Source of the DNA: Streptomyces sp. NBC_01750
GTDB lineage: Bacteria > Actinomycetota > Actinomycetes > Streptomycetales > Streptomycetaceae
Direction of reading: 5' to 3'
DNA: 64,000 bases
Assembly: GCF_035918095.1 (NCBI RefSeq)
Contig: NZ_CP109137.1
Span: 1,302,001-1,366,000 of the forward strand
The position numbers and the translations under genes were made by a program. This document shows positions 290-19,127 of this stretch, piece after piece. The notes below the pieces were generated by a model. It had not been told where the DNA came from. It did no database searches and was given only the letters and a program-made list of their open reading frames with translations. How positions within the stretch are numbered: position 1 is the stretch's first letter; each line of letters begins with the position of its first letter.

Positions 290-2494
290 GTGAAGCAGGT
301 TGTGCAGAACTACAAGAGCGGCGAGCTGGCGGTGCTCGACGTGCCGGTGCCGGGGTGCAAGCCGGGCGGTGTGCTGGTCCGCACCGCCTACTCGCTGATA
401 TCCACCGGGACCGAGCTCATGAAGGTGTCCGAGGCCGGCATGTCGATGCTGGGCAAGGCCCGCTCCCGTCCCGATCAGGTGGCCAAGGTCATGCAGAGCG
501 TAGCCACCAACGGGGTGCCCGCCACCTACCGCAAGGTGATGGGCAAGCTGGACTCCTACACGCCGCTGGGCTACTCGCTGTGCGGGGTGGTCGAGCAGGT
601 CGGCGCCGGGATCGACGATGTGAAGGTCGGCGACCTCGTGGCCTGCGCCGGCAACGAGCACGCGTTGCACGCCGAGCTGAACTGGGTGCCGAAGAACCTC
701 TACGCCCCGGTGCCGGACGGCCTCGCGCCGCGGCACGCGGCCTTCGGCACCGTCGGGTCGATCGCGATGCAGGGCGTGCGCCGAGCCGAGCCGCAACTCG
801 GCGACGTGGCGCTGGTCATCGGCCTCGGGCTGATCGGGCAGCTGGTGGTGCAGCTCCTCGCCGCTTCGGGGGTCCGCGTCGTCGGGGTCGACCCCGACCC
901 GGTGCGCTGCGAGCTCGCCGAGGGCCTGGGCGCCGCGGCCTGCGGCGATCCCGCGTCCGCGGCCGTGGAAGCCGCTGTCGCCGAACTCACCTGCGGTCAC
1001 GGCGTGGACCAGGTGTACCTGGCCGCCGGCGGCGGCAGCAACCAGCCCGTCGAGCTGGCCGCCCGGTTGTGCCGGGACCGTGGCCGGGTCGTCGACATCG
1101 GCAAGTGCCGCCTGGACCTGCCGTGGAACGCGTACTACGAGAAAGAGCTCGACGTCCGGTTCTCGCGCAGTTACGGCCCCGGGCGCTACGACCCGGAGTA
1201 CGAGCTCGAGGGGCGGGACTACCCGATCGGCTACGTGCGCTGGACCGAGCGCCGCAACCTGGCGTGCTTCCTCGATCTCCTCGCCCGCGGCAGCGTCGAC
1301 GTGGAGCCCCTGGTCTCCCACATCGCCGACTTCGACGACGCCGTCGAGACGTACCAGAGCCTGAAGGACGGCGACCTGAAGGCCGTGGCCGTGCTGTTCC
1401 GGTACCCCGAACAGAAGGAGGAAGCGGGGGAAGCGGAGGCCCCGGCGGTCGCAGTGCCCGCGGTGCGACGCAGCGGCAGAGCGTCCACCCCGGCCCGGCC
1501 CGCCGAGGCACCGGTGCGGCTGGCGTTCGTCGGCGCGGGAAACTACGCGACGTCGATGCTGCTGCCGCACCTGGCACAGCGCGACGGCGTCGAGTTGTCC
1601 ACGGTCGTCACCACGACGGCGCTGTCCGCGGCCAACGCCAAGCGGAAGTTCGGCTTCGCCGAGGCGACCACCGATCTCGACGCCGTACTCGGCGACCAGT
1701 CCATCGACGCGGTGTTCGTGGTCACCCGCCACAGCTCGCACGCCGAACTGACCCGAAGGGCGCTCCTGGCCGGCAAGGCGGTGTTCGTGGAGAAGCCCCT
1801 GGCGCTCACCGAGGACGACCTGGCCGGTGTGCTCGCGGCGGTGGAGGAGTCCGGCAACGACCGGCTGCAGGTGGGCTTCAACCGCCGGTTCGCGCCGCTG
1901 TTGCAGGAGGCCAGGAAACGGTTCGGCGCCCGGACCGGTCCGGCGAGCCTGCGCTATCTGGTCAACGCGGGCCGGCTGCAGCACGGCAGCTGGTACCTCC
2001 AACAGGGCACCGAGGGCTCGCGCTTCGCCGGCGAGGGCGGACACTTCATCGACACGGCGAGCTGGCTGCTCGAGGCCGACCCGGTCTCGGTGTACGCGAC
2101 CGCCCCGGCCGGCAACGAGGGCGGCAGTGACATTCAGATTGTGCTGCGATACCCGGACGGGTCCACCGCCACCATCAGCTACGTCACCACCGGCGCGCCC
2201 AGCTTCCCCAAGGAGACGCTGGACCTCGTCGCGGACGGCAAGGTGCTGCGGCTCGACGACTTCGTCCGTGCCGCTGTTTACGATGACCGCCGCAAGCGGT
2301 GGGTCAGTTCGCGGCTGCCCAAGGCCCGGGACAAGGGCCAGTCCGCCGAGCTGGCCGCGTTCGTCAAGGCCGTGCGGACCGGCGGGCCGATGCCGGTGCC
2401 GCTGGAGTCGCTGGTCGCCACCACCGCGGCCACCCTCGCCGTACAGGCAGGCCTGGCCGGCGGCGCGCCGGTGACGCTGGCGAGGGCACGATGA
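290..2494 (+). CDS. Bi-domain oxidoreductase: zinc-type alcohol dehydrogenase fused to Gfo/Idh/MocA
   Basis: 734 aa from a GTG start preceded by an AAGGGGA ribosome site. Residues ~1-360 are a medium-chain alcohol dehydrogenase module with a Rossmann nucleotide site (VIGLGLIGQLVVQLL). An Ala/Pro/Glu-rich linker (~365-405) leads to a Gfo/Idh/MocA module, with VGAGNYATS for NAD(P) binding and the VEKPLAL signature near residue 500. This fusion is a recognised family in bacterial exopolysaccharide loci, usually beside a heparinase II/III-like gene and an AsnB homologue, exactly as here. It probably oxidises or epimerises a nucleotide-linked or polymer sugar; the reaction is not established. Its stop overlaps the next ATG (ATGA at 2491-2494), so the two genes should be translationally coupled. 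Confidence 0.88.
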   Translation: MKQVVQNYKSGELAVLDVPVPGCKPGGVLVRTAYSLISTGTELMKVSEAGMSMLGKARSRPDQVAKVMQSVATNGVPATYRKVMGKLDSYTPLGYSLCGVVEQVGAGIDDVKVGDLVACAGNEHALHAELNWVPKNLYAPVPDGLAPRHAAFGTVGSIAMQGVRRAEPQLGDVALVIGLGLIGQLVVQLLAASGVRVVGVDPDPVRCELAEGLGAAACGDPASAAVEAAVAELTCGHGVDQVYLAAGGGSNQPVELAARLCRDRGRVVDIGKCRLDLPWNAYYEKELDVRFSRSYGPGRYDPEYELEGRDYPIGYVRWTERRNLACFLDLLARGSVDVEPLVSHIADFDDAVETYQSLKDGDLKAVAVLFRYPEQKEEAGEAEAPAVAVPAVRRSGRASTPARPAEAPVRLAFVGAGNYATSMLLPHLAQRDGVELSTVVTTTALSAANAKRKFGFAEATTDLDAVLGDQSIDAVFVVTRHSSHAELTRRALLAGKAVFVEKPLALTEDDLAGVLAAVEESGNDRLQVGFNRRFAPLLQEARKRFGARTGPASLRYLVNAGRLQHGSWYLQQGTEGSRFAGEGGHFIDTASWLLEADPVSVYATAPAGNEGGSDIQIVLRYPDGSTATISYVTTGAPSFPKETLDLVADGKVLRLDDFVRAAVYDDRRKRWVSSRLPKARDKGQSAELAAFVKAVRTGGPMPVPLESLVATTAATLAVQAGLAGGAPVTLARAR

Positions 2495-4476
2495 CTGTGA
2501 GCTCGGGGAGTCCGGGCTGGTACCTGCGGCGGTTGTCCCGGATGGGACCGCGGGAGGTCGGCGGCCGGGTGGGCGACGCGGTGCGCAGGCGGCGGTGGCG
2601 GTCGGCGCCGCCGGAATGCCCGAGCGTGAACGGCGCCCGGTTCACCGCGGTACTGCCCGCCGGGACGATCGCCGCAGTGCCGCCGGACGCAGCGAAACGT
2701 CTCATCGCCGAGGCGGACCGACTGATGGCCGGGCACGCCGAGTACTTCGGGGTGGACCGCGACGACATGGTCAACCCCGACTGGTGGTACGACCCGAAGA
2801 CCGGGCGCCGGGCGCCGTGGGGGTACGCCTTCGACGTGCCGTACCGGAACGAGGACGCGGTCGGGGACATCAAGCAGATCTGGGAGCCGTCCCGGCATCA
2901 GTACCTCACCGTGCTCGCCGCCGCCTACGCGATCTCCGGGAACGAGCAGTACGCCGAGCGGGTGGCCGAGCACCTGCGGTTGTGGTGGGCGGCCAACGCG
3001 CCGCTGCGCGGAGTGCACTGGGTCAGCGGCATCGAGCTGGGCATCCGGCTGCTGTCCTGGGTATGGATCCGCCGGCTGCTCGACGGCTGGCCGGGCGTGG
3101 CCGGTCTGTTCGAGGGCAACCCGGCGGCGCTGAACCAGATCTGGCACCACCAGCGCTGGCTGGCCGCCTTCCCCAGCCGGGGGTCTTCGGCGAACAACCA
3201 CGTCATCGCCGAGACCGCCGGGCAGTTCGCAGCGGCCTGCGCGTTCGGCTGGTTCCCCTCCTCGGCGCGTTGGCGAGCCGGCGCGCTGCGATCGCTGGAG
3301 CGGCAGCTGCGCGGCAACACCTTCCACTCGGGCCTCAACCGCGAGTTGGCCACCGAGTATCACGGACTCGTGCTGGAGCTCGGCCTGGCCGCGGTGGCCG
3401 AGGCGGATGCCGCCGACGTGCCGGTCCCCGCGTCGCTCCGGCTGGTGCTGCTGCGGATGACCGACGCGCTCGCGGCCGTCGTGGACAGCCGGTTACGGCC
3501 GCCGCGCCAGGGGGACGCGGACGACGGGCACGGTCTGATCGTGGACGGCGCGGGCACCGACCGCTGGGGCTCGCTGCTGGCCACCGGGGACGCCGTGTTC
3601 GGCCGGCTCGACTGGTGGCCGGCGGTGATTGGCACCGATGTGCGCACCCCGCTGCTTGCCGCGCTCATCCGGCCGTACTCGAAAAATGGAACTGCACCGG
3701 CCGTGACACGCCCGGCAAGCCGACCGGCCCATTTCGCCGACGCGGGCATGACCATCCTGCGCGGTCCGGCAGAGATCTGGTGCCGCTGCGACGGTGGCCC
3801 GCACGGATTCCTGTCCATCGCCGCGCATGCCCACGCGGACGCGCTGTCCATAGAGGTCCGGCACGACGGGGTCGACGTGCTCGCCGACCCGGGGACGTAC
3901 TGCTACCACGGGCAGCCCGAGTGGCGTGAGTACTTCCGGTCCACCCTCGGCCACAACACCCTGCAGCTGGACGGCGGTGACCAGTCCGCCTCCGGCGGCC
4001 CGTTCCTGTGGACCCGCCATGCCCGCAGCCGCGTCCTGGTCGCGGACACATCCGGCACCTCCGACGGGGGGACGGCCCGCTGGTGCGCCGAACACGACGG
4101 CTACCAGGACTCCGTGCACCGCCGCCGGGTGGAACTGACCGCCGCGAGCCAGGAGTTGCGGGTGGTCGACGAGGTGCGCGGCCCGCGCCGGGAGATGCGC
4201 CTCGCGTTCCACCTCGGCCCGGCGATCACCGCGGACCTGGCGGAGAACCGGGCCGTGCTCACCTGGACCCGGGACGGCGAGGACCGCTCCGCAGTGCTCG
4301 ACCTGCCCGGGCAGCTGCGCTGGCGCGCGCATCGCGGCGAGATTGACCCGCCGCTGGGCTGGTACTCCGCCGGATTCGGACGCAAGGAACCCTCCACCAC
4401 GCTGGTCGGCACCGGTTTCGCCGACGGCGCTGTGCTGTTGGGGGAGTTCACCACCGTGCTCAGGTTTCGCGGCTAG
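2491..4476 (+). CDS. Heparinase II/III family protein (alginate-lyase-like), contains a TTA codon
   Basis: 661 aa; the ATG at 2491 overlaps the upstream stop. The N-terminal half is an alpha-helical toroid (IKQIWEPSRHQYLTVLA region, then SSANNHVIAE near residue 230, the usual active-site Asn-His segment). The C-terminal beta-sandwich carries HAHADALS near residue 445 followed by DPGTYCYHG, typical of heparinase II/III lyases. No signal peptide is visible, so it probably acts inside the cell. In glycan loci such proteins may be lyases or uronosyl epimerases; this one is undetermined. The codon at 3493-3495 is TTA (Leu), the only in-frame TTA I found in the window. In Streptomyces that codon needs the bldA tRNA, implying developmental control. 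Confidence 0.85.
   Translation: MTVSSGSPGWYLRRLSRMGPREVGGRVGDAVRRRRWRSAPPECPSVNGARFTAVLPAGTIAAVPPDAAKRLIAEADRLMAGHAEYFGVDRDDMVNPDWWYDPKTGRRAPWGYAFDVPYRNEDAVGDIKQIWEPSRHQYLTVLAAAYAISGNEQYAERVAEHLRLWWAANAPLRGVHWVSGIELGIRLLSWVWIRRLLDGWPGVAGLFEGNPAALNQIWHHQRWLAAFPSRGSSANNHVIAETAGQFAAACAFGWFPSSARWRAGALRSLERQLRGNTFHSGLNRELATEYHGLVLELGLAAVAEADAADVPVPASLRLVLLRMTDALAAVVDSRLRPPRQGDADDGHGLIVDGAGTDRWGSLLATGDAVFGRLDWWPAVIGTDVRTPLLAALIRPYSKNGTAPAVTRPASRPAHFADAGMTILRGPAEIWCRCDGGPHGFLSIAAHAHADALSIEVRHDGVDVLADPGTYCYHGQPEWREYFRSTLGHNTLQLDGGDQSASGGPFLWTRHARSRVLVADTSGTSDGGTARWCAEHDGYQDSVHRRRVELTAASQELRVVDEVRGPRREMRLAFHLGPAITADLAENRAVLTWTRDGEDRSAVLDLPGQLRWRAHRGEIDPPLGWYSAGFGRKEPSTTLVGTGFADGAVLLGEFTTVLRFRG
3493..3495 (+). 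promoter_or_regulatory. Single TTA leucine codon (bldA-dependent translation point)
   Basis: In the frame set by the ATG at 2491 the codons around here read AGC CGG TTA CGG CCG. TTA is the rarest Streptomyces codon and is read by the developmentally expressed bldA tRNA-Leu (established). I looked for TTA in frame through the other genes and found none. Because the cluster is translationally coupled, a stall here could also reduce the genes downstream (inference). Confidence 0.75.
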
Positions 4477-6019: not shown

Positions 6020-7252
6020 ATGGCCGCGGACCACACATCGAAGATCGTCGGGACGGCCTGGGGGCTGCTGATCCTCAACACGCTCGGCTCCGCCGGCGCG
6101 AAGACCATCATTCCGCTGCCCCGCTCCCTCATCCAGATGGCCACCATGGGCGCGCTGGTCGCCGCGTTCGCGCTGGCACTCGCCGTCAATCTCCGGCTGC
6201 GCATCCGGGCCAGCGCCTTCGTGTTCCTGCTCACCCTGCTGCTCGTGCCGAGCGTGATCTCCAGCGCGAACCTGGAGTCCGGATTCGGCGCGCTGTTCCG
6301 CTGCACCCGGCTGGCTCTCTTCGTCGGCACGCTGTGGCTGCTCAGCCGCTGGTGGGACGGCAGCCTGACGTTCGTCCGGCATCACATCCGGATGTACTTC
6401 GCGGTCCTCGGGTCGGTGGCCGCCGGCCTGGTCATCTCACCGGGCGCCGCCATGCCCGAGCTCTACGGCGGGCGCCTGGTCGGCGCGTTGTGGCCGCTCA
6501 CCCCGCCGCAGATCGGACAGTACGCCGCAGTGATCATCGGGCTCACCGTGCTGCTCCTCCTGGGCCGCCGGACCGACAGGGGCAGCGCGGCGGCGGTCAT
6601 CGTGCCGGCACTCGTCCTGCTCGCGCTGACCCATACCCGGACGGCCACGCTCGGCCTGCTCATCGGGCTGGTGCTGGCGATCGGCTCGCTCATCCTGACC
6701 AGCGCCGCCGCCCGCCGGTTCTTCGCCTGGGCGGTGCTGTGCGCCGCCGTGGCCGCGGTGGCGTTCAGCACCGCGCTGCAGGCGTGGTTCCTGCGCGGAC
6801 AGAGCAAAGAGAACCTCTCCAGCCTCACCGGTCGGGCCAAGGTCTGGGACGCCCTGCTGGCAGCCCCCCGGACGGCCTCGGAGTACCTGTTCGGCGCGGG
6901 CCTGGGCGACAAGTCGTTCGGCGGGCTGCCGATCGACAACAGCTGGCTGGCCGTTTACCACGAGCAGGGTCTGACCGGCACCGCCATCGTGGCGGCGATC
7001 ATCATCGTGCTGGGCGGCGTCGCGTTGCTGCGGCCACCGTCGCTGTCGAGGGCCTGCGCGATCTTCCTGATCAGCTACTGCGCGATCGCGTCGTACACCG
7101 AGGCCGGTCTGGGCGACGCCTCGCCGTATCTGCTGCATCTGACCGTGGCCGCCTCGCTGCTTGCGGCACCTGCCGCGGCCACTCCCCTCGCGACGACCGA
7201 AGTCCCTCGACGGCGCACACCGCAATGGGCCCGTCGATCGGAGGTGACCTGA
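6020..7252 (+). CDS. O-antigen ligase/Wzy-type polysaccharide polymerase
   Basis: 410 aa from the ATG at 6020 (an in-frame GTG at 6011 is possible). Around ten hydrophobic segments span the protein. Near residues 270-320 lies a long periplasm-type loop (LTGRAKVWDALL ... LFGAGLGDKSFGG ... DNSWLAVYHEQGLTG), the typical Wzy_C / O-antigen ligase signature with the conserved Arg and the D-N-x-x-L element. It should polymerise lipid-linked repeat units, or ligate them, on the outer face of the cell membrane. Its place beside a flippase and glycosyltransferases supports a Wzx/Wzy-style pathway (inference). Confidence 0.85.
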   Translation: MAADHTSKIVGTAWGLLILNTLGSAGAKTIIPLPRSLIQMATMGALVAAFALALAVNLRLRIRASAFVFLLTLLLVPSVISSANLESGFGALFRCTRLALFVGTLWLLSRWWDGSLTFVRHHIRMYFAVLGSVAAGLVISPGAAMPELYGGRLVGALWPLTPPQIGQYAAVIIGLTVLLLLGRRTDRGSAAAVIVPALVLLALTHTRTATLGLLIGLVLAIGSLILTSAAARRFFAWAVLCAAVAAVAFSTALQAWFLRGQSKENLSSLTGRAKVWDALLAAPRTASEYLFGAGLGDKSFGGLPIDNSWLAVYHEQGLTGTAIVAAIIIVLGGVALLRPPSLSRACAIFLISYCAIASYTEAGLGDASPYLLHLTVAASLLAAPAAATPLATTEVPRRRTPQWARRSEVT

Positions 7253-7254
7253 GC

Positions 7255-8529
7255 ATGCACATCCTCGTAGTCCACAACCGCTACGCCTCGGCGCAGCCGA
7301 GCGGGGAGAACAACGTCGTCGACCAGGAGGTGGCGCTGCTGCGCGAGGCCGGCCACCGGGTCGGGGTGTTCGAGCGGCGCAGCGACGACATCGCCGCCCG
7401 GTCTCTGCTTTCCAAGGCCGCGGTGCCGCTCCTCGTGCCGTGGAACCCGGCGGTCCGCACGGAGCTCGCCGGCCGGCTTCGCACCGAGCGGCCTGACGTC
7501 GTGCACGTGCACAACGTCTTCCCGCTCCTGTCCCCCGCGGTCCTTGCCGCCTGCGCCGACGCCGGCGTGCCCGCCGTCGCCACACTGCACAACTACACGC
7601 AGGTCTGCCCGCCCGGCACGCTGCAGCGGGACGGCCGGCCGTGCACCGAGTGCGTCGGGTCGGCGCCGCTGCCCGCCGTCCGGCACGGCTGCTACCGGAA
7701 CTCCCGGCTGGCGACGGTGCCGCTCGCGGTCAGCCTGTCGGTCAACCGGCGGCGGTGGTGGTCCGGCGTGGAGCGGTTCTTCTGCATCTCCGCGGCGCAG
7801 CGCGACGTGCTGGTGCGGTCCGGCATGCCGGCCGAGCGGCTGGCGGTGAAGCACAACTTCGTGCCCGACCCTGGCACTTGCCGAGCGGGCGCCGGCGAGC
7901 ATGTGCTCTTTCTCGGCCGGCTCGCGGAGGCCAAGGGCGTACGGCTGCTCATGGCCGCGTGGGACGAGATCGCAGCGAGCGGCGGTGTGGGCGTGCCGCT
8001 CGTGATCGCCGGCGCGGGGCCCCTGGAGCCGGAGGTGACCGCCTGGGCGGCGGGCCGGGACGACGTGCGGTACGTCGGCCTGTACGACCCCGCCCACTGT
8101 CGGCAGGCCATCGCGCGCTCGGTCGCCGTGGTGGCTCCCTCGACGTGGCTGGAGGCGTTCGGCCTGGTGGTCGTGGAGGCGATGGCGGCGGGGGTCCCGG
8201 CCGTCGCCGCCGGTCACGGCGCCTTCGTCGAACTCGTCGAGGACGGGGTGACCGGGCTGTTGCACCAGCCGGGCGACCCCGCCTCGCTCGCGTCCTGCGT
8301 GCGCCGGATCGCGAACGATCCGCACCGCAACCAGGAGATGGGCCAGGCGGCCCGGCGCCGGTACGAGCAGGGCTTCAGCCCGGCCGTCGGCCTCGAACGC
8401 CTGGTGGAGGGGTACCGCACCGCGATCGCGGGTCGGTCCGGCGGCGGGGACACCGTGCCGTCGGCAGGTAATGGAAACACTGGCTCGCGGCGGGGCACCC
8501 GCGCGAGCAGGGATGGGGGCAGTAAATGA
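7255..8529 (+). CDS. Glycosyltransferase family 4
   Basis: 424 aa, ATG at 7255 behind GGAGGTGAC. The GT-B fold is visible. The N-terminal donor-independent half has HNRYASAQPSGENNVVD and VVHVHNVFPLLSP. A Cys-rich loop (CPPGTLQRDGRPCTEC plus HGCYRNS) is typical of one GT4 subgroup. The C-terminal half has FLGRLAEAKGV and an E-x7-E retaining motif in WLEAFGLVVVEAMAAGVP. It should transfer a sugar from an NDP donor to a lipid-linked acceptor at the cytoplasmic membrane face. Its stop overlaps the next ATG (8526-8529). Donor and acceptor are unknown. Confidence 0.88.
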   Translation: MHILVVHNRYASAQPSGENNVVDQEVALLREAGHRVGVFERRSDDIAARSLLSKAAVPLLVPWNPAVRTELAGRLRTERPDVVHVHNVFPLLSPAVLAACADAGVPAVATLHNYTQVCPPGTLQRDGRPCTECVGSAPLPAVRHGCYRNSRLATVPLAVSLSVNRRRWWSGVERFFCISAAQRDVLVRSGMPAERLAVKHNFVPDPGTCRAGAGEHVLFLGRLAEAKGVRLLMAAWDEIAASGGVGVPLVIAGAGPLEPEVTAWAAGRDDVRYVGLYDPAHCRQAIARSVAVVAPSTWLEAFGLVVVEAMAAGVPAVAAGHGAFVELVEDGVTGLLHQPGDPASLASCVRRIANDPHRNQEMGQAARRRYEQGFSPAVGLERLVEGYRTAIAGRSGGGDTVPSAGNGNTGSRRGTRASRDGGSK

Positions 8530-9827
8530 CACGATGCCGACTCTGCGGCTCGACGGCGTTGGGGAGCGTCGTCGATCTGGGGGCGACCCCGCCGTGTGAG
8601 AGCTTTCTCGCCGCGGACCAACTGGACCAGCCGGAACCGGCGTACCCGCTGCACCTGCGGGTCTGCACCGATTGCTGGCTCGCGCAGATCCCCCCGCTGA
8701 TCACGCCGGAGGAGACGTTCACGCAGTACGCGTACTTCTCCTCCTACTCGACCTCCTGGGTGGAGCACGCGCGCACGTTCGTCGCCGACACCGCAGCGCG
8801 CCTTGCTCTCGGCCCCGACGCCTTCGTGGTCGAGGTCGCGAGCAATGACGGGTACCTGCTCCGGCACATCGTCGACCGGGGAATCCGTTGCCTCGGCATC
8901 GAGCCGTCGGTGAACGTCGGCGCCGCGGCACGGGACGCGGGCGTGCCCACGCTCACGGCGTTCCTGGACCCGGACACCGGCTCGGCCGTCCGCGCCGAGC
9001 ACGGCCCTGCGAACCTGGTCGTGGCCAACAACGTGTACGCGCACATCCCCGACGTGGTCGGGTTCACCAAGGGGCTGCGCGCCCTGGTCGCCGACGACGG
9101 CTGGGTCTCCATCGAGGTGCAGCACCTGCTGACCCTGATCGAGGAGAACCAGTACGACACGATCTACCACGAGCACTTCCAGTACTACACGGTCGCGTCC
9201 GCGATCCGGGCGCTGGCGAGCGGCGGACTCACGCTCGTGGACGTCGAGCTGCTGCCCACGCACGGCGGCTCCATCCGGCTGTGGGCCCGGCCGGCCGAGG
9301 TGGCCGGCGAGCCGACGGATGGGGTATCCCCTGCTCTGGGGGCCCCTCCCGGCCGAAGGCTGGGGGAGGAGCCGAGAGCTTGGGGAAGGGTGGCCGACGT
9401 GCTCGCCCGGGAGAAGGCCGCCGGGCTGCAGGAGCTGTCCGGATACACCGAGTTCTCCGCCCGGGTGGCCAAGGTCCGCCGCGATCTGCTGCGGTTCCTG
9501 ATCGAGGCGGCCGAGCGCGGCGAGACGGTCGTCGGCTACGGCGCCCCGGGCAAGGGCAACACCCTGCTCAACCACTGCGGCATCCGGCCCGACCTGCTCC
9601 CGTACACGGTCGACCGCAACCCCTACAAGCACGGCAGGTACACCCCGGGCACCCGCATCCCCATCCTGCCGCCCGAGCAGATAGCCGCCGACAAGCCGGA
9701 CTACGTCCTCGTCCTCCCGTGGAACCTGCGGGCCGAGCTGGTCGAGCAGCTGTCCTTCGTGCACGACTGGGGCGGCCGGCTTGTCTTTCCCATCCCGGAA
9801 CTGAGCATTGTCGAGGTCAAGTCATGA
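8526..9827 (+). CDS. Nucleotide-sugar C-methyltransferase with in-frame repeat insert
   Basis: 433 aa. Order of parts: an N-terminal zinc site (CRLCG ... CTDCW, residues ~4-60), a SAM-binding domain (VVEVASNDGYLLRHI ~100), and a C-terminal domain with GYGAPGKGNTLLNHCGI (~335-350). This is the architecture of NDP-hexose C-methyltransferases (NovU/TylC3 type), which methylate C-3 of a 4-keto sugar. Residues ~265-289, between SAM and C-terminal domains, are encoded by a 73-bp palindromic repeat using codons rare in this genome (GTA, CCT, AGG, AGA, CGA). Without it the length would be near the usual ~410 aa. Overlaps the flanking genes by 4 bp on both sides. Confidence 0.87.
   Translation: MTRCRLCGSTALGSVVDLGATPPCESFLAADQLDQPEPAYPLHLRVCTDCWLAQIPPLITPEETFTQYAYFSSYSTSWVEHARTFVADTAARLALGPDAFVVEVASNDGYLLRHIVDRGIRCLGIEPSVNVGAAARDAGVPTLTAFLDPDTGSAVRAEHGPANLVVANNVYAHIPDVVGFTKGLRALVADDGWVSIEVQHLLTLIEENQYDTIYHEHFQYYTVASAIRALASGGLTLVDVELLPTHGGSIRLWARPAEVAGEPTDGVSPALGAPPGRRLGEEPRAWGRVADVLAREKAAGLQELSGYTEFSARVAKVRRDLLRFLIEAAERGETVVGYGAPGKGNTLLNHCGIRPDLLPYTVDRNPYKHGRYTPGTRIPILPPEQIAADKPDYVLVLPWNLRAELVEQLSFVHDWGGRLVFPIPELSIVEVKS
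9319..9391 (+). repeat. Palindromic repeat element, copy 1, translated in frame
   Basis: This 73-bp stretch is identical to 13027-13099 and an inverted variant lies at 16549-16618. Its centre folds as CCTCCCGGCC-GAA-GGCTGGGGGAGG, a ~10-12-bp stem with a wobble pair and small bulge. In the host gene it encodes about 24 extra residues containing GAPPGRRLGEEPRAWGR. Codon choice differs sharply from the flanks. Similar short palindromes occur between genes in Streptomyces genomes (general knowledge); here it is inside a coding region. Confidence 0.88.
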
Positions 9828-10654
9828 AGGTCGTTCTGTTCTGCGGCGGTTACGGGCTGCGGATGCGCAGCGGAGCCTCCGACGACATGCCCAAGCCGAT
9901 GGCGATGGTCGGCCCGCGGCCGCTGATCTGGCACGTCATGCGCTACTACGCGTACTTCGGGCACACGGAGTTCATCCTGTGTCTCGGGTACGGGGCGCAC
10001 CACATCAAGAACTTCTTCCTCAACTACGAGGAGACGACGTCCAACGACTTCGTGCTGCGGGGCGGGCAGACCGAGCTGCTGTCCACCGACATCGCCTCCT
10101 GGACGATCACCTTCGTACAGACCGGCATCGAGTCGCCGATCGGGGAGCGGCTGCGCCGAGTGCGGCACCACCTGGACGGCGACGAGATGTTCCTCGCCAA
10201 CTACGCCGACGTGCTCACCGACGCCCCGCTGCCGGAGATGATCGACCGGTTCGCCCGGCGCGACGCCGGTGCGTCGATGATGGTGGTGCCGCCGCAGTCC
10301 TCGTTCCACTGTGTGGACCTGGGCGAGGACGGCCTGGTGGGGGGCATCACCGCGGTGAGCGACATGCCGCTGTGGGAGAACGGCGGCTACTTCGTGCTCC
10401 GCCAGGAGATCTTCGACCACATCCCGGAGAACGGCGACCTGGTCGCCGACGGATGCGCCCAACTGGCCAAGCACGGTCGGCTGGTGGCGCACCAGCACCG
10501 CGGCTTCTGGAAGCCGACCGACACCGTGAAGGAGCGGGCCGCGCTCGACGACGCCTACGCCCGGGGCGACCGCCCGTGGGCCGTGTGGGAACGGGACGGC
10601 GCGGGGGCGAGCGCGACCGGCAGCAGGGACGGCGCCGGGGCGAGGACCGCGTGA
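9824..10654 (+). CDS. Sugar-1-phosphate nucleotidyltransferase (glucose-1-phosphate cytidylyltransferase-like)
   Basis: 276 aa, ATGA overlap with the gene before. The N-terminus has the nucleotidyltransferase fold signature VVLFCGGYGLRMR ... MPKPMAMVGPRPLIWHVM. The YEETTSNDF and HHLDGDEMFLANYADVL segments resemble RfbF-type CDP-glucose pyrophosphorylases rather than RmlA. It should activate a hexose-1-phosphate as an NDP-sugar, probably CDP-linked (inference from family resemblance). Together with the neighbouring C-methyltransferase, epimerases and aminotransferase it suggests a branched or amino-deoxy sugar pathway. The C-terminal ~20 residues are low-complexity Gly/Ala/Arg. Confidence 0.82.
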   Translation: MKVVLFCGGYGLRMRSGASDDMPKPMAMVGPRPLIWHVMRYYAYFGHTEFILCLGYGAHHIKNFFLNYEETTSNDFVLRGGQTELLSTDIASWTITFVQTGIESPIGERLRRVRHHLDGDEMFLANYADVLTDAPLPEMIDRFARRDAGASMMVVPPQSSFHCVDLGEDGLVGGITAVSDMPLWENGGYFVLRQEIFDHIPENGDLVADGCAQLAKHGRLVAHQHRGFWKPTDTVKERAALDDAYARGDRPWAVWERDGAGASATGSRDGAGARTA

Positions 10655-11298
10655 TCCGGCTCGGGGCCGGGCGCCTGGACCGGATCGTCGCGGTAGGGGC
10701 GCACTGCGACGACATCGCCATCGGCGCCGGCGGCACGCTGCTGACGATGTGCCTCGCGCGGCCGGGTATCCGTATCGACGCGCTGGTGCTCTCCGGCGGT
10801 GGCAGCGAGCGGGAGAAGGAGGAGAAGGCCGCGCTCGCCGCCTTCTGCCCGGGCGCCGAACTGCGGCTGACCGTGCTCAAGTTGCCGGACGGCCGACTGC
10901 CCGCGCACTGGGAGGAGGCCAAAGCCGCGGTCGAGGAACTGCGCCTGCAGAGCGAACCGGATCTGGTGCTGGCGCCGCGTACCGATGACGCGCACCAGGA
11001 TCACCGCGGCCTGGCGAAGCTGATGACCACCGCATTCCGCGACCACCTCGTGCTCCGCTACGAGATCGTCAAGTGGGACGGCGATCTCGGCCGTCCGTCG
11101 GCGTACCAGCCGCTGTCGCCGGAGATCGCCGAACAGAAAGTGCGGCTGTTGCAGGAGCACTACCCCTCGCAACGGCACCGGCCCTGGTACGACCGGGAGG
11201 CCTTCCTCGGTCTTGCGCGGATCCGCGGCATCGAATGCCATGCGCGCTACGCCGAGGCGTTCGCCGTCACCAAACTCACTCTCAATCTGGGGGAATGA
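10651..11298 (+). CDS. PIG-L family zinc-dependent deacetylase
   Basis: 215 aa from a GTG overlapping the upstream stop (GTGA at 10651-10654). The metal/catalytic motif appears as AHCDDIAIGAGGTL near residue 17. The family consensus is AHPDDE, so His and both Asp residues are kept while Pro and Glu are replaced. A second ligand motif DDAHQDH lies near residue 113. The family removes acetyl groups from GlcNAc-type sugars or GlcNAc conjugates (MshB, PIG-L). Here it probably deacetylates a precursor or lipid-linked amino sugar of the glycan. It ends 3 bp before the next gene. Confidence 0.85.
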   Translation: MIRLGAGRLDRIVAVGAHCDDIAIGAGGTLLTMCLARPGIRIDALVLSGGGSEREKEEKAALAAFCPGAELRLTVLKLPDGRLPAHWEEAKAAVEELRLQSEPDLVLAPRTDDAHQDHRGLAKLMTTAFRDHLVLRYEIVKWDGDLGRPSAYQPLSPEIAEQKVRLLQEHYPSQRHRPWYDREAFLGLARIRGIECHARYAEAFAVTKLTLNLGE

Positions 11299-11301
11299 AC
11301 A

Positions 11302-12336
11302 ATGCGCGTACTGCTGACCGGACACCAGGGCTACCTGGGCACCGTGATGGCCCCGGTCCTCGCGGCCGCCGGGCACGAGGTCGTCGGTCTTGACGCCGGC
11401 CTCTTCGCGGACTGCGTGCTGGGCCCGCCGCCCGCGGACCCGCCGGGGCAGCGGGTGGATCTGCGCGACGTCACGGCCGACCACGTGGCCGGGGTCGACG
11501 CCGTGATCCACCTGGCCGCGCTCTCCAACGACCCGCTGGGATCGCTGGCGCCGGACCTCACCTACGACATCAACCACCACGCCTCCGTACGGCTGGCCCG
11601 GCTGGCCCGCGACGCCGGAGTGCGGCGCTTCCTGTACGCGTCGACCTGCTCGGTCTACGGCGCCGCCGGCGGCAGTGACTCGGCGAACTTGGTGACCGAG
11701 GACGCCCCGCTGCGCCCGGTGACGCCGTACGCGGAGTCCAAGGTGCGCGTGGAGGACGACCTGCACGCGCTCTCCGACGGCGACTTCAGCCCGGTGTTCA
11801 TGCGCAACGCCACCGCCTTCGGCTACTCACCCCGGCTGCGCGCCGACATCGTGCTGAACAACCTGGTGGGCCACGCGCTCCTGTCCGGCGAGGTGCTGGT
11901 GCTCTCCGACGGCACCCCCTGGCGCCCGCTGGTGCACGCCGCCGACATCGCACGGGCCTTCACGGCCGCGCTGACCGCGCCGCGGGAATCGGTGCACGAC
12001 CGGGCGTTCAACATCGGCAGCGAGATCAACAACGTCACGGTCGCCGAGATCGCCGAACAGGTCGCCGAGGCGATATCCGGCTCACGGGTGGTGATCACCG
12101 GGGAGACCGGTGCCGATCCGCGGTCGTACCGGGTGGATTTCTCCCGGTTCCGCGCCGCGGTGCCCGGCTTCGACTGCGAGTGGACGGTGAAGCAGGGCGC
12201 GCTCGAACTGGCCGACGCCTACCGGAAACACGGGCTGACACGGGAGGACTTCGAGCGACGCTTCACCCGGCTGGCCGTGCTGCGCGCGGCGTCCGACGCC
12301 GGCACCGTCGACGACACCCTGCGGTGGCGCCGATGA
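11302..12336 (+). CDS. NAD-dependent epimerase/dehydratase (extended SDR)
   Basis: 344 aa. The Rossmann glycine motif is LLTGHQGYLG at the N-terminus; the catalytic residues are in YASTCSVYG (Ser) and PYAESKV (Tyr-x3-Lys). The C-terminal half (RPLVHAADIARAF, NIGSEINNVTVAEIA) is the usual sugar-nucleotide-binding part. Because no other 4,6-dehydratase is visible in the window, this gene is the best local candidate for the dehydratase or reductase step of the methylated sugar. Sequence alone cannot separate epimerase, dehydratase and reductase. Its stop overlaps the next ATG. Confidence 0.85.
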   Translation: MRVLLTGHQGYLGTVMAPVLAAAGHEVVGLDAGLFADCVLGPPPADPPGQRVDLRDVTADHVAGVDAVIHLAALSNDPLGSLAPDLTYDINHHASVRLARLARDAGVRRFLYASTCSVYGAAGGSDSANLVTEDAPLRPVTPYAESKVRVEDDLHALSDGDFSPVFMRNATAFGYSPRLRADIVLNNLVGHALLSGEVLVLSDGTPWRPLVHAADIARAFTAALTAPRESVHDRAFNIGSEINNVTVAEIAEQVAEAISGSRVVITGETGADPRSYRVDFSRFRAAVPGFDCEWTVKQGALELADAYRKHGLTREDFERRFTRLAVLRAASDAGTVDDTLRWRR

Positions 12337-13673
12337 CCGCGGCCGGCGAGGAGATGTACGCGCTGGTGGAGCGGTTGTACCCGCTGTGCCGGAGCATCAC
12401 CGGCGACGGTGTGCGCGCCACCCTGGAGATCGTCGGCGAGTACGTCCCGCTGCAGGTGCACGAGGTGCCGACGGGGACTCAGGTGCTCGACTGGACGGTG
12501 CCGCAGGAGTGGAACATCCGGGACGCGTACGTCGCCGACTCCGCCGGCAGGCGGGTCGTCGACTTCGCCGCGTCCAGCCTGCACGTGCTCGGCTACAGCG
12601 TGCCGGTGTCGGCGACCATGCCTCTGGCCGAGCTCCGCGCGCACCTGCACACCCTGCCGGACCACCCGGCCTGGGTGCCGTACCGCACCAGCTACTACAA
12701 GCCGGAGTGGGGGTTCTGCCTGGCCCAGGAGACCTTGGACGCGCTGCCGGACGGCGACTACGAGGTGTGCGTCGACTCCACGCTCACCGATGGCCATCTC
12801 ACCTACGCCGAGCACGTGGTGCCCGGGCAGGTCGCCGACGAGGTGATCGTCTCCTGCCACGTCTGCCACCCGTCACTGGCCAACGACAACCTGGCCGGCA
12901 TCGCGGTGGCGACGTTCCTGGCCCGGGCGCTGGCGGAGGAGCAGCCGTACTTCACCTACCGGTTCCTGTTCGCGCCCGGCACCATCGGGGCGATCACCTG
13001 GCTGGCCCGCAACGCGGAGCGGGTGAATGGGGTATCCCCTGCTCTGGGGGCCCCTCCCGGCCGAAGGCTGGGGGAGGAGCCGAGAGCTTGGGGAAGGGTC
13101 AAGCACGGGCTGGTGCTGGCCTGCGCCGGCGACCCGGGCCGGCTGACGTACAAGCAGAGCAGGCGCGGCGACGCGGAGATCGACCGGGTGATGCGGCATG
13201 TGCTGGACGCCTCCGAACGCCCGCACCACATCGCCGAGTTCACTCCGTACGGCTACGACGAGCGGCAGTTCTGCTCGCCCGGGTTCGACCTCGGCGTGGG
13301 TTCGCTCAGCCGGACCCCGTACGCCGGCTACCCCGAATATCACACCTCGGCGGACAACCTGGACTTCGTCACCCCCGAGGCGATGGCGGACACTCTCGCC
13401 GTCTGCCGCGAGGCATTCGCCGTCCTTGACCGCAACCGGCGGTACGTCAACCTCAGCCCCTACGGCGAACCACAGCTGGGGCGGCGTGGGTTGTACGACT
13501 CGCTCGGTGGCCGCAGCGACGCGAAGCAGGCCCAGATGGCCATGCTCTGGGTGCTCAGCCTCTCCGACGGCGAGCACAGTCTGCTGGACGTCGCCGAGCG
13601 GTCCGGTCTGCCGTTCGACACCGTCGCCGCCGCGGCCGACGCCCTGTGCGGCGCCGAACTGATCAAGGCATGA
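12333..13673 (+). CDS. DUF4910/aminopeptidase-like protein with in-frame repeat insert
   Basis: 446 aa. Metal-peptidase-like elements are visible: VSCHVCHPSLANDNLAG near residue 170-185 (M28-like His/Asp ligands) and SPGFDLGVGSLSRTPYAGYPEYHTSADNLDFV around residue 310-345. A winged-helix-like tail (LLDVAERSGLPFDTVAAAADAL) closes the protein. This combination defines the DUF4910/DUF2172 family found in polysaccharide loci, whose function is unknown. Residues ~232-256 come from a 73-bp repeat identical to that in the C-methyltransferase and interrupt the protein just after ITWLARNAERV. ATGA overlaps occur at both ends. It may hydrolyse an amide on the glycan (speculative). Confidence 0.8.
   Translation: MTAAGEEMYALVERLYPLCRSITGDGVRATLEIVGEYVPLQVHEVPTGTQVLDWTVPQEWNIRDAYVADSAGRRVVDFAASSLHVLGYSVPVSATMPLAELRAHLHTLPDHPAWVPYRTSYYKPEWGFCLAQETLDALPDGDYEVCVDSTLTDGHLTYAEHVVPGQVADEVIVSCHVCHPSLANDNLAGIAVATFLARALAEEQPYFTYRFLFAPGTIGAITWLARNAERVNGVSPALGAPPGRRLGEEPRAWGRVKHGLVLACAGDPGRLTYKQSRRGDAEIDRVMRHVLDASERPHHIAEFTPYGYDERQFCSPGFDLGVGSLSRTPYAGYPEYHTSADNLDFVTPEAMADTLAVCREAFAVLDRNRRYVNLSPYGEPQLGRRGLYDSLGGRSDAKQAQMAMLWVLSLSDGEHSLLDVAERSGLPFDTVAAAADALCGAELIKA
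13027..13099 (+). repeat. Palindromic repeat element, copy 2, translated in frame
   Basis: Base-for-base identical to 9319-9391 and read in the same frame and orientation, giving the same 24-residue insert containing GAPPGRRLGEEPRAWGR. The flanking bases differ from copy 1, so the boundary of identity is sharp. The host frame resumes correctly after it (KHGLVLACAGDPG), so the insertion length is a multiple of three. Confidence 0.88.
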
Positions 13674-14989: not shown

Positions 14990-15933
14990 CCGACCGACCC
15001 AGGCTGAGCATCGGCCTGCCCGTGTACAACGGCGAGGAGTACCTGGCCGAGTCGCTCGACGCCCTGCTCGGCCAGACCTACGAGGACTTCGAGCTGGTCA
15101 TCTCCGACAACGCCTCGACCGACGGGACCCAGGAGATCTGCCGCAAGTACGCCGCGCGCGACTCGCGTATCCGGTACCTCCGGCTGCCCCGGAACATCGG
15201 CGCCACGCCGAACCACAACCATGTGTTCGCCGAGTCCCGCGGCCAGCTGTTCAAGTGGGCCTCGCACGACGACCTGTACGGCCGGGACCTGCTGCGGCGC
15301 TGCGTGGATGCGCTGGACGAGCGGCCGGACATGATCCTCGCGCACACCGGCCAGGCGGTCATCGACGGCGACGGCCAGGTGAAGGTCCCGTACGAGTACG
15401 GGCTCGCCACCGACTCTCCGCACGCGCCGGAGCGCTTCCGCAGTCTGCTGTTCGAACCGGGTGGCGACGACTTCTACGGGGTGATGCGGGCCGACATGCT
15501 GCGCCGGGTGCGGCCGATGGACAGTTACCACCACGCGGACCGTACGTTCGTCGCCGAGATCGCCCTGCACGGGTCCTTCCACCAGGTGCCGGAGCTGCTG
15601 TACTTCCGCCGCGACCACCCCACCCGCGCCGAGCGGGCGAACCCCGGCAAGCGCGCCCGGTGCGTCAACCTGGACCCGCGCCGGGCAGGCCCGCTGCACC
15701 CGACACCCCGGCTGCTCGCCGAGTACGTCTGGGGCTTCGTCTCGGCGATCCGGCGGGCGCCGTTGTCCCAAGCCGACCGGCGCGCGTGCTACCGCCACCT
15801 GGCCGCGTGGATGACCAGCCGGGTCGGGCCGGGCGCCGGCGAGCGGGTCGAGGATCGCGACCCGGTCGATCCGGGTCTGCTCACGGTCTCCGTCGACGCC
15901 CTCGTCGCCGGCCGTGAGGGGAGGCAGGCATGA
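14986..15933 (+). CDS. Glycosyltransferase family 2
   Basis: 315 aa. The GT-A fold shows LSIGLPVYNGEEYLAESLDALLGQTYEDFELVISDNASTDGT at residues 6-48 and a metal-binding HDDLYG in place of the usual DxD near residue 90. The C-terminal part contains ADRTFVAEIALHG, the expected acceptor/catalytic-base region of inverting GT2 enzymes. No membrane helix is obvious. It should add one sugar of the repeat unit; donor unknown. ATGA overlaps on both sides place it firmly in the operon. Confidence 0.87.
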   Translation: MTDRPRLSIGLPVYNGEEYLAESLDALLGQTYEDFELVISDNASTDGTQEICRKYAARDSRIRYLRLPRNIGATPNHNHVFAESRGQLFKWASHDDLYGRDLLRRCVDALDERPDMILAHTGQAVIDGDGQVKVPYEYGLATDSPHAPERFRSLLFEPGGDDFYGVMRADMLRRVRPMDSYHHADRTFVAEIALHGSFHQVPELLYFRRDHPTRAERANPGKRARCVNLDPRRAGPLHPTPRLLAEYVWGFVSAIRRAPLSQADRRACYRHLAAWMTSRVGPGAGERVEDRDPVDPGLLTVSVDALVAGREGRQA

Positions 15934-17237
15934 CACCCGCGAACGGGACTCCGGTGCGCGTGGGGGTGTTCGGGCTGCTCGGCTCCGGCAACCTCGGCAA
16001 CGACGGATCGCTCGAAGCCGTGCTCGGGTACCTCCGCGCCGAACACCCGGAGGCGGACGTGGACGCGCTGTGCGGCGGACCCGAGGCCGTGACGACCCGG
16101 TTCGGGATCCCCGCGACGCGGCTGCACTGGTACGGCGGGGAGTACCGGACGGCGTCGCGTGCGGGCGCGATCGCGGCGAAGGGTCTGGGCAAACTTGTCG
16201 ACGTCTTCCGCACCGCTGCCTGGGTGCGCCGGCACGACGTGGTGATCGTGCCGGGCATGGGCGTCCTGGAGGCGACACTGCCCCTGCGGCCGTGGGGCTT
16301 CCCGTACTCGCTGTTCCTGCTCTGCGCGAGTGGCCGGCTGCTGCGCACCCGGGTGGGGCTGGTCAGCGTCGGCGCCGCGACGATCGGCAACCGGCCGACC
16401 CGCGCCCTGGTGCGCTGGTCGGCGCGGCTGGCCGCATACCGGTCGTACCGGGACGCGCAGTCGCGCGACGCGATGCGGGCGATGGGCGTAGACACCGCGC
16501 GCGACGAGGTCTACCCGGACCTCGCGTTCGCCCTGCCGACGCCGCGGTCCCCCGAGCTCTCGGCTTCTCCCCCAGCCTTCGGCCGGGAGGGGCCCCCAGA
16601 GCAGGGAGGTACCCCCAGCGCGCCCTCGGACCCGTCGGCCCCGCCGGGCCCGGTCTGCGTCGGCGTCATGGACTTCCACGGCGGCAACGACGATCGCGCC
16701 CGGGCCGATGAGATATACCGGCGCTACCTCGACGGGACGGTCCGGTTCGTCCGCGCGCTGGTCGAGGAGGGCAGGGCTGTCCGGCTGCTCACCGGTGACG
16801 AGTGCGACGCGTCGGTGGTCGCCGCGATCCTCGAAGCGGTGGACTCGCCGCTGGTCACCGCTGCCGAGCCGTCCTCACTGGCCGACCTGATGAAGGAGAT
16901 GGCGGCTGCCGACACCGTGGTGGCGATCCGGTACCACAACCTGATCTGCGCGCTGAAGACCGGTACGCCGGTGCTCGCTCTCTGCTATGCGGCGAAGAGC
17001 GACGCGCTCATGGCGGAGATGGGCCTCGGCGCGTACTGCCACCCGGCGCGCGAGGTCGACGCGGACCGACTGCTCGAGCAGTTCCGTGCGCTGGAAAAGC
17101 ATTCGGCCGAGCTGCGGCAGACCCTCACCGAGCGGAACCTGGCCGCCGCCCGGCGACTCGAGCACCAGTTCAACTCCTTGACCGCGGCCCTGTTCCCGGC
17201 GACCGACCACGCCCACACCTTGCGGAAGGCTCCATGA
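15930..17237 (+). CDS. Polysaccharide pyruvyl transferase family protein with inverted repeat insert
   Basis: 435 aa. Begins VGVFGLLGSGNLGNDGSLEAVL, the family's N-terminal Gly-Asn motif. The C-terminal nucleotide/PEP region contains VVAIRYHNLICALKTGTPVLALCYAAKSDALM with the conserved R-x-H. The enzyme normally puts a pyruvate ketal on a sugar from phosphoenolpyruvate, giving the polymer negative charge. Residues ~207-230 (ELSASPPAFGREGPPEQGG) are the translation of the repeat element in reverse orientation, lying in the linker between the two lobes. A Pro/Ala/Ser-rich tail follows the insert. ATGA overlaps occur at both ends. Confidence 0.85.
   Translation: MTPANGTPVRVGVFGLLGSGNLGNDGSLEAVLGYLRAEHPEADVDALCGGPEAVTTRFGIPATRLHWYGGEYRTASRAGAIAAKGLGKLVDVFRTAAWVRRHDVVIVPGMGVLEATLPLRPWGFPYSLFLLCASGRLLRTRVGLVSVGAATIGNRPTRALVRWSARLAAYRSYRDAQSRDAMRAMGVDTARDEVYPDLAFALPTPRSPELSASPPAFGREGPPEQGGTPSAPSDPSAPPGPVCVGVMDFHGGNDDRARADEIYRRYLDGTVRFVRALVEEGRAVRLLTGDECDASVVAAILEAVDSPLVTAAEPSSLADLMKEMAAADTVVAIRYHNLICALKTGTPVLALCYAAKSDALMAEMGLGAYCHPAREVDADRLLEQFRALEKHSAELRQTLTERNLAAARRLEHQFNSLTAALFPATDHAHTLRKAP
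16549..16618 (-). repeat. Palindromic repeat element, copy 3, inverted and diverged
   Basis: Roughly 70 bp matching the reverse complement of copies 1 and 2, with a few substitutions and a small indel near the 3' end (GGGAGGTACC where the others would read GGGGATACC). Because it is read from the other strand, the host protein gains a different peptide, SPPAFGREGPPEQGG, yet the frame stays open. The hairpin core CCCAGCCTTCGGCCGGGAGG is unchanged. Confidence 0.83.
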
Positions 17238-17792: not shown

Positions 17793-19127
17793 GTGGACAC
17801 CGAAGGCACCGAAGAGCTCCTCATGCCCCGGTCGCGGATGGCGAACGAGCGGCTGCACGCCATGATCCCGGGAGGCGCGCACACGTACGCCAAGGGCGAC
17901 GACCAGTACCCCGAGAACCTGGCCCCGGTCATCAGCCACGGCCGCGGTGCCCATGTGTGGGACATCGACGGCAACCGCTACATCGAGTACGGCTCCGGCC
18001 TGCGGTCGGTCAGCCTCGGCCACGCCCACCCACGCGTGATCGAGGCGGTGCGGCGGGAACTCGACCGCGGCAGCAACTTCGTCCGGCCGTCGATCGTGGA
18101 GGTCGAGGCCGCGGAACGCTTCCTTGCCACCGTGCCGACCGCCGAGATGGTGAAGTTCGCGAAGAACGGCTCCGACGTCACCACCGCCGCGGTGCGCCTC
18201 GCCCGCGCCGTCACCGGGCGCCCGCGGGTGGCCATCTGCGGCGACCATCCGTTCTTCTCCGTCGACGACTGGTTCATCGGCACCACGCCGATGTCGGCCG
18301 GTGTTCCGGCGGCGACCACCGAGCTCACCGTGTCCTTCCCTTACGGGGACCTGGCCGCCACACAGGAACTGCTCACCCGGTACCAGGACGAGGTCGCCTG
18401 CCTGATCCTCGAACCTGCCGGCCACACCGAGCCGCCGCCCGGGTACCTCGCCGGCCTGCGCGAGCTGGCCGACCGGCACGGCTGCGTACTGATCTTCGAT
18501 GAGATGATCACCGGCTTGCGCTGGTCCGAGGCGGGCGCCCAGGGCCTGTACGGCGTCGTCCCCGACCTCTCCACGTTCGGCAAGGCGCTGGGCAACGGGT
18601 TCGCCGTCTCCGCGCTGGCCGGGCGCCGCGAACTGATGGAGCGGGGCGGGCTGCGTCACTCCCGCGACCGGGTGTTCCTGCTGTCCACCACGCACGGTGC
18701 GGAAACGCACTCCCTGGCAGCCGCGATGGCCGTGCAGACCACCTACGTCGAGGAGGGCGTCACCGCGCGGCTGCACGCCCTCGGCGAGCGGTTGGCCGCC
18801 GGTGTGCGCGACGCCGCGGCCGGCATGGGCGTCGGCGACCACATCGTCGTCCGGGGCCGGGCCAGCAACCTGGTCTTCGCCACCCTCGACGAGAACCGGC
18901 AGCCGTCGCAGCAGTACCGCACCCTGTTCCTGCGCCGGCTCCTCGCGGGCGGGGTGCTGGCCCCGTCGTTCGTGGTGAGCAGCGCGCTCGGCGACGCCGA
19001 CATCGATCGCACCGTCGACGTGGTGGCCCAGGCATGTGCGGTGTACCGGAAGGCACTGGACGCCGCCGACCCCACCCCCTGGCTGGCCGGGCGACCGGTG
19101 AAGCCCGTATTCCGCCGCTTGGCGTGA
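17793..19127 (+). CDS. Class III aminotransferase / glutamate-1-semialdehyde aminomutase-like
   Basis: 444 aa from GTG 17793; an ATG at 17824 is a possible alternative. Family features: IPGGAHTYAKGDDQYPENLAPVI at the N-terminus, FAKNGSDVTTAAVRLAR, the PLP-anchoring LIFDEMITGLRW, and the Schiff-base lysine in STFGKALGNGFAVSALAG. It resembles HemL-type enzymes that occur in sugar loci rather than the haem gene itself. It probably transfers an amino group to, or moves it within, a nucleotide sugar (inference). Last gene of the operon; the next gene converges 7 bp away on the other strand. Confidence 0.84.
   Translation: MDTEGTEELLMPRSRMANERLHAMIPGGAHTYAKGDDQYPENLAPVISHGRGAHVWDIDGNRYIEYGSGLRSVSLGHAHPRVIEAVRRELDRGSNFVRPSIVEVEAAERFLATVPTAEMVKFAKNGSDVTTAAVRLARAVTGRPRVAICGDHPFFSVDDWFIGTTPMSAGVPAATTELTVSFPYGDLAATQELLTRYQDEVACLILEPAGHTEPPPGYLAGLRELADRHGCVLIFDEMITGLRWSEAGAQGLYGVVPDLSTFGKALGNGFAVSALAGRRELMERGGLRHSRDRVFLLSTTHGAETHSLAAAMAVQTTYVEEGVTARLHALGERLAAGVRDAAAGMGVGDHIVVRGRASNLVFATLDENRQPSQQYRTLFLRRLLAGGVLAPSFVVSSALGDADIDRTVDVVAQACAVYRKALDAADPTPWLAGRPVKPVFRRLA

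Follow-up and report, generated by a model that had tools for sequence, protein, structure and literature searches.

We analysed a stretch of 64,000 nucleotides from Streptomyces sp. NBC_01750 (contig NZ_CP109137.1, positions 1,302,001 to 1,366,000; hereafter the window), in which a short palindromic element lies in frame within three enzyme genes. The element very probably belongs to a family of mobile elements of Streptomyces: short, apparently non-autonomous palindromes that insert by replacing about 4 bp of their target and of which the in-frame copies within genes are retained. A previous sequence-only reading of the window had reported an identical 73-bp repeat in two genes, and an exact match confirmed it: positions 9319-9391 and 13027-13099 are identical, lie on the same strand and are in frame within the open reading frames (ORFs) 8526-9827 and 12333-13673 (copies A and B). 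The 73 bp are the maximal identical stretch and include chance matches of the flanks. The inserted unit measures 70 bp and was swapped for ~4 bp, a net gain of 66 bp or 22 codons, so that in-frame extra residues are present as claimed but number 22 and not 24. As the element landed in frame in enzyme genes, ~22 extra amino acids are expected per enzyme. A third copy (C), 94% identical and in the opposite orientation within ORF 15930-17237, had been missed. The two hosts known at that point had been assigned to adjacent operons; gene calling instead placed all three in one tightly packed same-strand gene row, which is of polysaccharide type (Table 1). In the own genome (8.98 Mb) a search with the 73-mer at E <= 0.001 returned these three full copies and two partial ones that consist of the inner hairpin only.

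The inserts differ from the genes around them. The mean coding score of each insert was lower than that of all windows of the same length from its own gene (n = 361, 374 and 363), and the GC content at third codon positions was 0.63, 0.63 and 0.75 compared to 0.91-0.97 in the flanks, in agreement with the unusual codons described earlier. The element folded moderately better than shuffled sequences (z -1.84 as DNA, z -2.55 as RNA), and the long form found here looks like a short palindrome of ~43 bp with an additional hairpin in its loop.

To compare filled and empty sites we used the best 80 of 489 relatives together with the window, giving 81 loci (L and G numbers are our handles for loci and genomes). 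Site C was readable in 73 of them, and at A a second look at six loci whose reading was truncated showed them to be empty. At A we observed the short form in 6 loci, the long form in 4, a remnant in 1 and an empty site in 70. Site B was filled in 12/81 loci (5 short, 7 long, 69 empty) and site C in 9/73 (64 empty), where the element occupies one position in both orientations, plus in 6 loci and minus in 3. At least one of the three sites was filled in 23/81 loci, and A and B together in 4/81. The distribution is thus sporadic. The clearest pairs show a clean exchange: at C the window has 70 nt where L037 has 4 nt, with near-identical flanks, and at A the carriers (L083 or the window) have 43 or 70 nt where L047 or L050 has 4 nt, as is likewise seen at B. 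About 4 bp of target were replaced in each clean case, with an alignment ambiguity of about one base. Against the nearest empty loci the net lengths at A and B were +39, +66 or +75, with the exceptions of +15 (L072) and +97 (L024); at C they spanned +9 to +66 and were in every case divisible by three, in a proline-rich linker that itself varies in length. The empty sites in many relatives bear out the earlier claim of a small mobile palindrome entering unrelated proteins cleanly and in frame, and the host genes remain open across many species, consistent with the tolerance then suggested. As further observations on these sites, the +15-nt net remnant of L072 (EPRAWG) suggests that part of an element was deleted in frame. 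In one strain (L033) a TP-rich tandem repeat has enlarged the linker of gene C that serves as the insertion site, and short tandem variation in length is seen at other positions in homologues of A and C.

The recurrence of the element at the same nucleotides could have arisen in several ways. Quick maximum-likelihood trees of the flanks required at least 10 present/absent changes for A, 11 for B and 9 for C, and therefore gain, loss or recombination must have been frequent. Each gene may have received a single old insertion (two in the case of C) that was spread by recombination within Streptomyces and often lost, without repeated insertion. The carriers have equal boundaries at A and at B and are sporadic on the gene trees, as this account would predict, whereas the opposite orientations at C require at least two events or an inversion; we give it somewhat less than an even chance. 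A related question is why A and B are identical in the window. The two insertions, which lie 3.7 kb from each other, may be older and made alike by gene conversion instead of both being recent, which would explain that the long form at B reads GCTGGGGG near its end in L008, L009 and L119 and that both copies of the window read GCTTGGGG. In L011 and L012, where both sites are filled, A and B differ from each other; L010 also has both. Against conversion, eight of eight relatives (G001, G004, G007, G011, G013, G015, G016 and G024) lack the element at A and B, as would be expected had it inserted recently, and we consider conversion a real but rather doubtful possibility. Site C is filled in G024. 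A search of 30 other genomes with a 5.2-kb query gave long matches in seven, which together with G024 make up these eight relatives.

Table 1. Positions of the element copies and their host genes in the window
Feature	Position	Strand	Remarks
Element copy A, long form, 70 bp	9318..9387	+	in the C-methyltransferase gene; core 9321-9385; ~4 bp of the empty site replaced; reads DGVSPALGAPPGRRLGEEPRAWGR
Element copy B, long form, 70 bp	13026..13095	+	in the DUF4910/aminopeptidase-like gene; element frame same as in copy A
Element copy C, long form, 70 bp	16548..16617	-	opposite orientation; in frame in the polysaccharide pyruvyl transferase gene; relative L037 has GCGA there
Nested inner hairpin of copy A	9336..9369	+	also found alone across many genomes of the genus; positions ~18-51 of the 73-mer query match alone; folds
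Host gene A, sugar C-methyltransferase	8526..9827	+	PF08421, PF13489, PF08484
Host gene B, DUF4910/putative peptidase-like protein	12333..13673	+	PF09940, PF16221, PF16254 listed for homologues; homologue of PDB 3k9t
Host gene C, polysaccharide pyruvyl transferase family	15930..17237	+	PF04230 listed for the protein and homologues

The element is also present in many other genes. Genes were called with a purpose-written codon-model caller trained on 53 named loci. Among 41 full copies from stretches of six genomes, which were picked from short-form pattern matches and cover parts of the genomes only, 31 lay outside called genes, 9 inside and 1 at an edge. At least three of the 31 are in fact in genes broken by the insertion (L171 twice, L175), and the caller also missed an in-frame copy (site D of L024) and the frameshifted copy at A of L024. 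Across all loci, a set biased towards the cluster, 65/121 full copies were in called genes. By hand count there are ~29 distinct host genes, which cover all six frames relative to the element. The host families include GcvT, PMT mannosyltransferase, molybdopterin oxidoreductase, FUSC, sigma-70, acyl-CoA dehydrogenase and GGDEF-EAL as well as HutF, AtuA, Xaa-Pro dipeptidyl-peptidase, methylmalonyl-CoA mutase, dihydropteroate synthase and glycine C-acetyltransferase. For eight in-frame sites (A, B, C, D, E, HutF, AtuA and a small protein) the filled gene was set against that of an empty relative, and the other hosts are gene-caller predictions. Sites D and E lie in two more genes of the row. Site D is filled in L014 and L024 and empty in the window's own gene 11302-12336, and the window's aminotransferase gene 17793-19127 is empty at site E. 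The net gain was +39 in the hutF-type deiminase (7/7 aligned relatives empty), in AtuA (6/6 empty; 20 loci fetched in either case) and in the small protein (L169 against L295, 96.9% identity over 5 kb). Three plasmid hits were opened: in two an annotated coding sequence (CDS) reads through the element, encoding a TnpB-like transposase and, with a weaker match of 83%, an MFS transporter, and the third record has no annotated genes there. In the former (L320, NZ_CP109590.1) the TnpB-like protein (OrfB_IS605, Cas12f1-like TNB) is listed as a single CDS at 2198-3409 with the element in frame at 3001-3042 (GGHLPARAQPRAWG). Two dihydropteroate synthase genes carry the short element in frame, L116 being assigned by a family match and L092 by the same flanking residues.

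We also considered that the extra residues are ancestral protein loops, lost in many lineages, and that the repeat is protein sequence palindromic by chance. Residues are indeed found at the insert site in 52/120 of the best homologues of protein A and in 43/120 of those of protein B, 40 of these with at least 8 residues, and among the 120 listed per protein the site ranges from long and short to decayed and empty. Yet the same repeat occurs in unrelated proteins, in all six frames, in both orientations (even at one site in C) and also outside genes, and its codon use is odd. The alignment gaps coincide with the insert: residues 7-236 and 258-448 of protein B align with PDB 3k9t, and the alignment of protein A with PDB 4rv9 has a gap at the insert. 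According to the sequence-only reading, the same residues in distant genera would have marked native protein sequence; many relatives and the aligned PDB homologues were found to be without the insert, as its proposed check by homologue alignment had anticipated. As a general account ancestral loops are refuted by these data, and we consider them extremely improbable.

The family is widespread in the genus. The pattern of the short form (<=3 mismatches) matched in 150/295 Streptomyces genomes with up to 42 copies, and the reversed-pattern control gave 0 in all 295 rows. In an order-wide draw 65/147 genomes matched, all of them Streptomyces, with 0/15 among the sampled genomes from other genera of the order. 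Matches were found in 23 plasmid records, all from Streptomyces, and in none of the phage records searched. With the 73-mer, 193/295 genomes gave a match at E <= 0.001, just 3 candidates being scored in the majority of genomes; many of these matches are limited to the inner hairpin at about positions 18-51 of the query, a sequence that is therefore a repeat in its own right. The basic form measures ~42-44 bp, and core sizes of 38-39, 65-66 and 74-75 bp were observed in Streptomyces. The arms are imperfect inverted repeats, the elements have no coding capacity by themselves, and in aligned copies the ends are mostly (G/A)AT ahead of GGGG and (A/G)AGG after the last GGGG. Elements are nested: L132 and L133 have a short-element-like sequence in the loop of the long form, and L119 and L024 have inner hairpins of other kinds. 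At site A of L024 (S. colonosanans, 6902-7003) a multiply nested hairpin array of +97 shifts the frame of the methyltransferase, where an assembly error is possible. A compound repeat of ~200 bp containing the element was found at 5859-6056 of L147, at 5719-5916 of L148 and at several contig ends of G095. Inspection of the G095 copies for an associated insertion sequence gave only this repeat.

Two known types of mobility come into question. The elements could be similar to repetitive extragenic palindromes (REPs) and their hairpin-forming doublets (REPINs), moved by a Y1 transposase (RAYT/TnpA-REP). They are short hairpins of high copy number and mostly outside genes, and Y1_Tnp matches occur in 99/295 genomes including the own one, with a mild excess among genomes with >=10 copies (16/32 compared to 83/263 of the others). 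At E <= 0.001, however, Y1_Tnp is without a match in the remaining 16 of these 32 genomes, and neither a GTAG nor a CGTC tag was seen at the stem. A Y1 transposase is thus unsupported as the necessary driver, and the explanation as a whole is unlikely. One Y1 transposase match (G253:C1:5914505-5914894) has the inner hairpin within it, at 5914741-5914774, and is 390 nt long compared to ~360 in similar matches. Alternatively, the elements could be miniature inverted-repeat transposable elements (MITEs) of a DDE insertion sequence with terminal inverted repeats. The imperfect terminal inverted repeats and the missing coding capacity agree with this origin, which we nevertheless regard as improbable, because clean sites show ~4 bp replaced and no target duplication. 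For an autonomous partner the copies of G095 were examined: inspection of the genes called in L147 and L148 revealed none resembling a transposase, no systematic search for a full-length partner having been made.

We then compared insertions in genome G124 with its relative G009 (about 92-98% identical here). The net length was +39 at L169, at the second copy of L171 and at L173, and +38 outside genes at L170. The first copy of L171 (position 2282, Nudix-type gene) gave +40 and L175 (position 2478, Ser/Thr protein kinase gene) +38; in both cases no gene was called in G124 and the G009 gene is intact. The comparison leaves out L168, L172, L174 and L179, which are too rearranged for a net length, and L167, L176, L177 and L178 have no partner among the G009 stretches fetched. 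The Nudix-type gene of G124 holds two insertions (L171, 2282 and 2550; +40 and +39). The idea that every insertion is frame-neutral fitted A, B, hutF and AtuA and failed on +38 and +40 here and on +97 in L024. An adaptation of the element to be free of stop codons, which the sequence-only reading had offered as selection for stop-free insertion, is likewise unsupported. Dinucleotide shuffling of the short form gave sequences without stops in all six frames in 1691/5000 cases (one-base-longer variant: 1670/5000). The 73-mer of the window is open and its shuffles were stop-free in 92/5000 cases (1.8%), a point in favour of adaptation of the long form, but 17.6% of real 73-mers in a 785-kb sample of the related genome G009 are open in six frames too. 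As gene-breaking insertions of +38, +40 and +97 occur and the net length varies by a base, the in-frame copies are plausibly what selection keeps after insertion.

Taken as a mobile element, the palindrome would enter DNA by replacing ~4 bp of the target, as at the sites with close empty relatives, and a second hairpin, sometimes short-element-like, may come to sit in the loop of the long form. Most copies examined lie outside genes. Those in genes would be kept if they add a net length divisible by three and the surroundings tolerate extra residues, and the insert peptide would then be translated as part of the host protein; the label exonised does not suit it, as splicing is not involved. 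Insertions out of frame also happen and break genes. Mobility, which we infer, might be provided in trans by some enzyme or result from a hairpin-driven replication error. Several points weigh against this reading. Transposition was not observed and no transposase was linked to the element. The short-form pattern has no match in the own genome, which contains only the three full copies. The presence of the insert within the finished protein is a prediction from the genes, and most host genes rest on the purpose-written caller. Same-nucleotide recurrence may derive partly from recombination between species and not from repeated insertion. The structure model of B is unusable (mean predicted local distance difference test score, pLDDT, 43), and that of A has a mean pLDDT of 55 with 227/433 residues below 50, including the insert (262-282), which shows no secondary structure. 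Given these low means, a location of the insert in a loop is weakly supported.

The closest known kind, by analogy, is the Rickettsia palindromic elements (RPEs), which the Streptomyces family appears to resemble in the way it works. RPEs were reportedly described by Ogata et al. They are palindromic repeats of ~150 bp from Rickettsia, in several families, which lie in frame in unrelated protein genes and are predicted to be translated (PMC10969869). The Streptomyces palindrome also lies in frame in unrelated protein genes, a likeness of behaviour, but it measures ~43-79 bp, belongs to a high-GC actinobacterial genus, is sometimes nested and replaces ~4 bp. With REP/REPIN elements (PMC3733652) it shares a short hairpin (38-39 bp core), up to 42 matches per genome and a location mostly outside genes. 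Unlike them, it is not at high copy number in the own genome, shows no GTAG/CGTC tag beside the stem of aligned copies by eye, is not strictly extragenic (9/41 in called genes and at least 3 more in broken genes) and appears not to require a Y1 transposase. Like bacterial MITEs it is small, has inverted repeats and lacks coding capacity, and in-frame fusions are reported for some of these (PMC10969869); it differs in the missing target duplication at clean sites and in having no known parent insertion sequence, none having been systematically sought. The coding palindromes of nematomorph mitochondria, perfect repeats of up to 284 bp (PMC6649704), are likewise inverted repeats within protein genes as far as described, whereas the Streptomyces element is bacterial and has imperfect arms. 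We found no description of this palindrome family in the literature searched, subscription journals lying outside its coverage.

Frequent in-frame palindromic insertion into proteins has been described for Rickettsia (PMC10969869). It is possible, although we lean slightly against it, that the elements form a self-nesting genus-wide family and represent a new route, in which a hairpin takes the place of ~4 bp, returns to the same codon positions in a number of enzymes, whichever way round, and so provides many proteins with translated peptides. The family would then be the actinobacterial equivalent, on a large scale, of the in-gene palindromes of Rickettsia. For annotation, the element accounts for some of the length differences between Streptomyces orthologues. 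Streptomyces is free-living and genetically tractable, its genomes number in the hundreds, and filled and empty sites can be cleanly paired, which makes the questions opened here testable: how the hairpin moves, at what rate it hits genes and how proteins take up foreign peptides.

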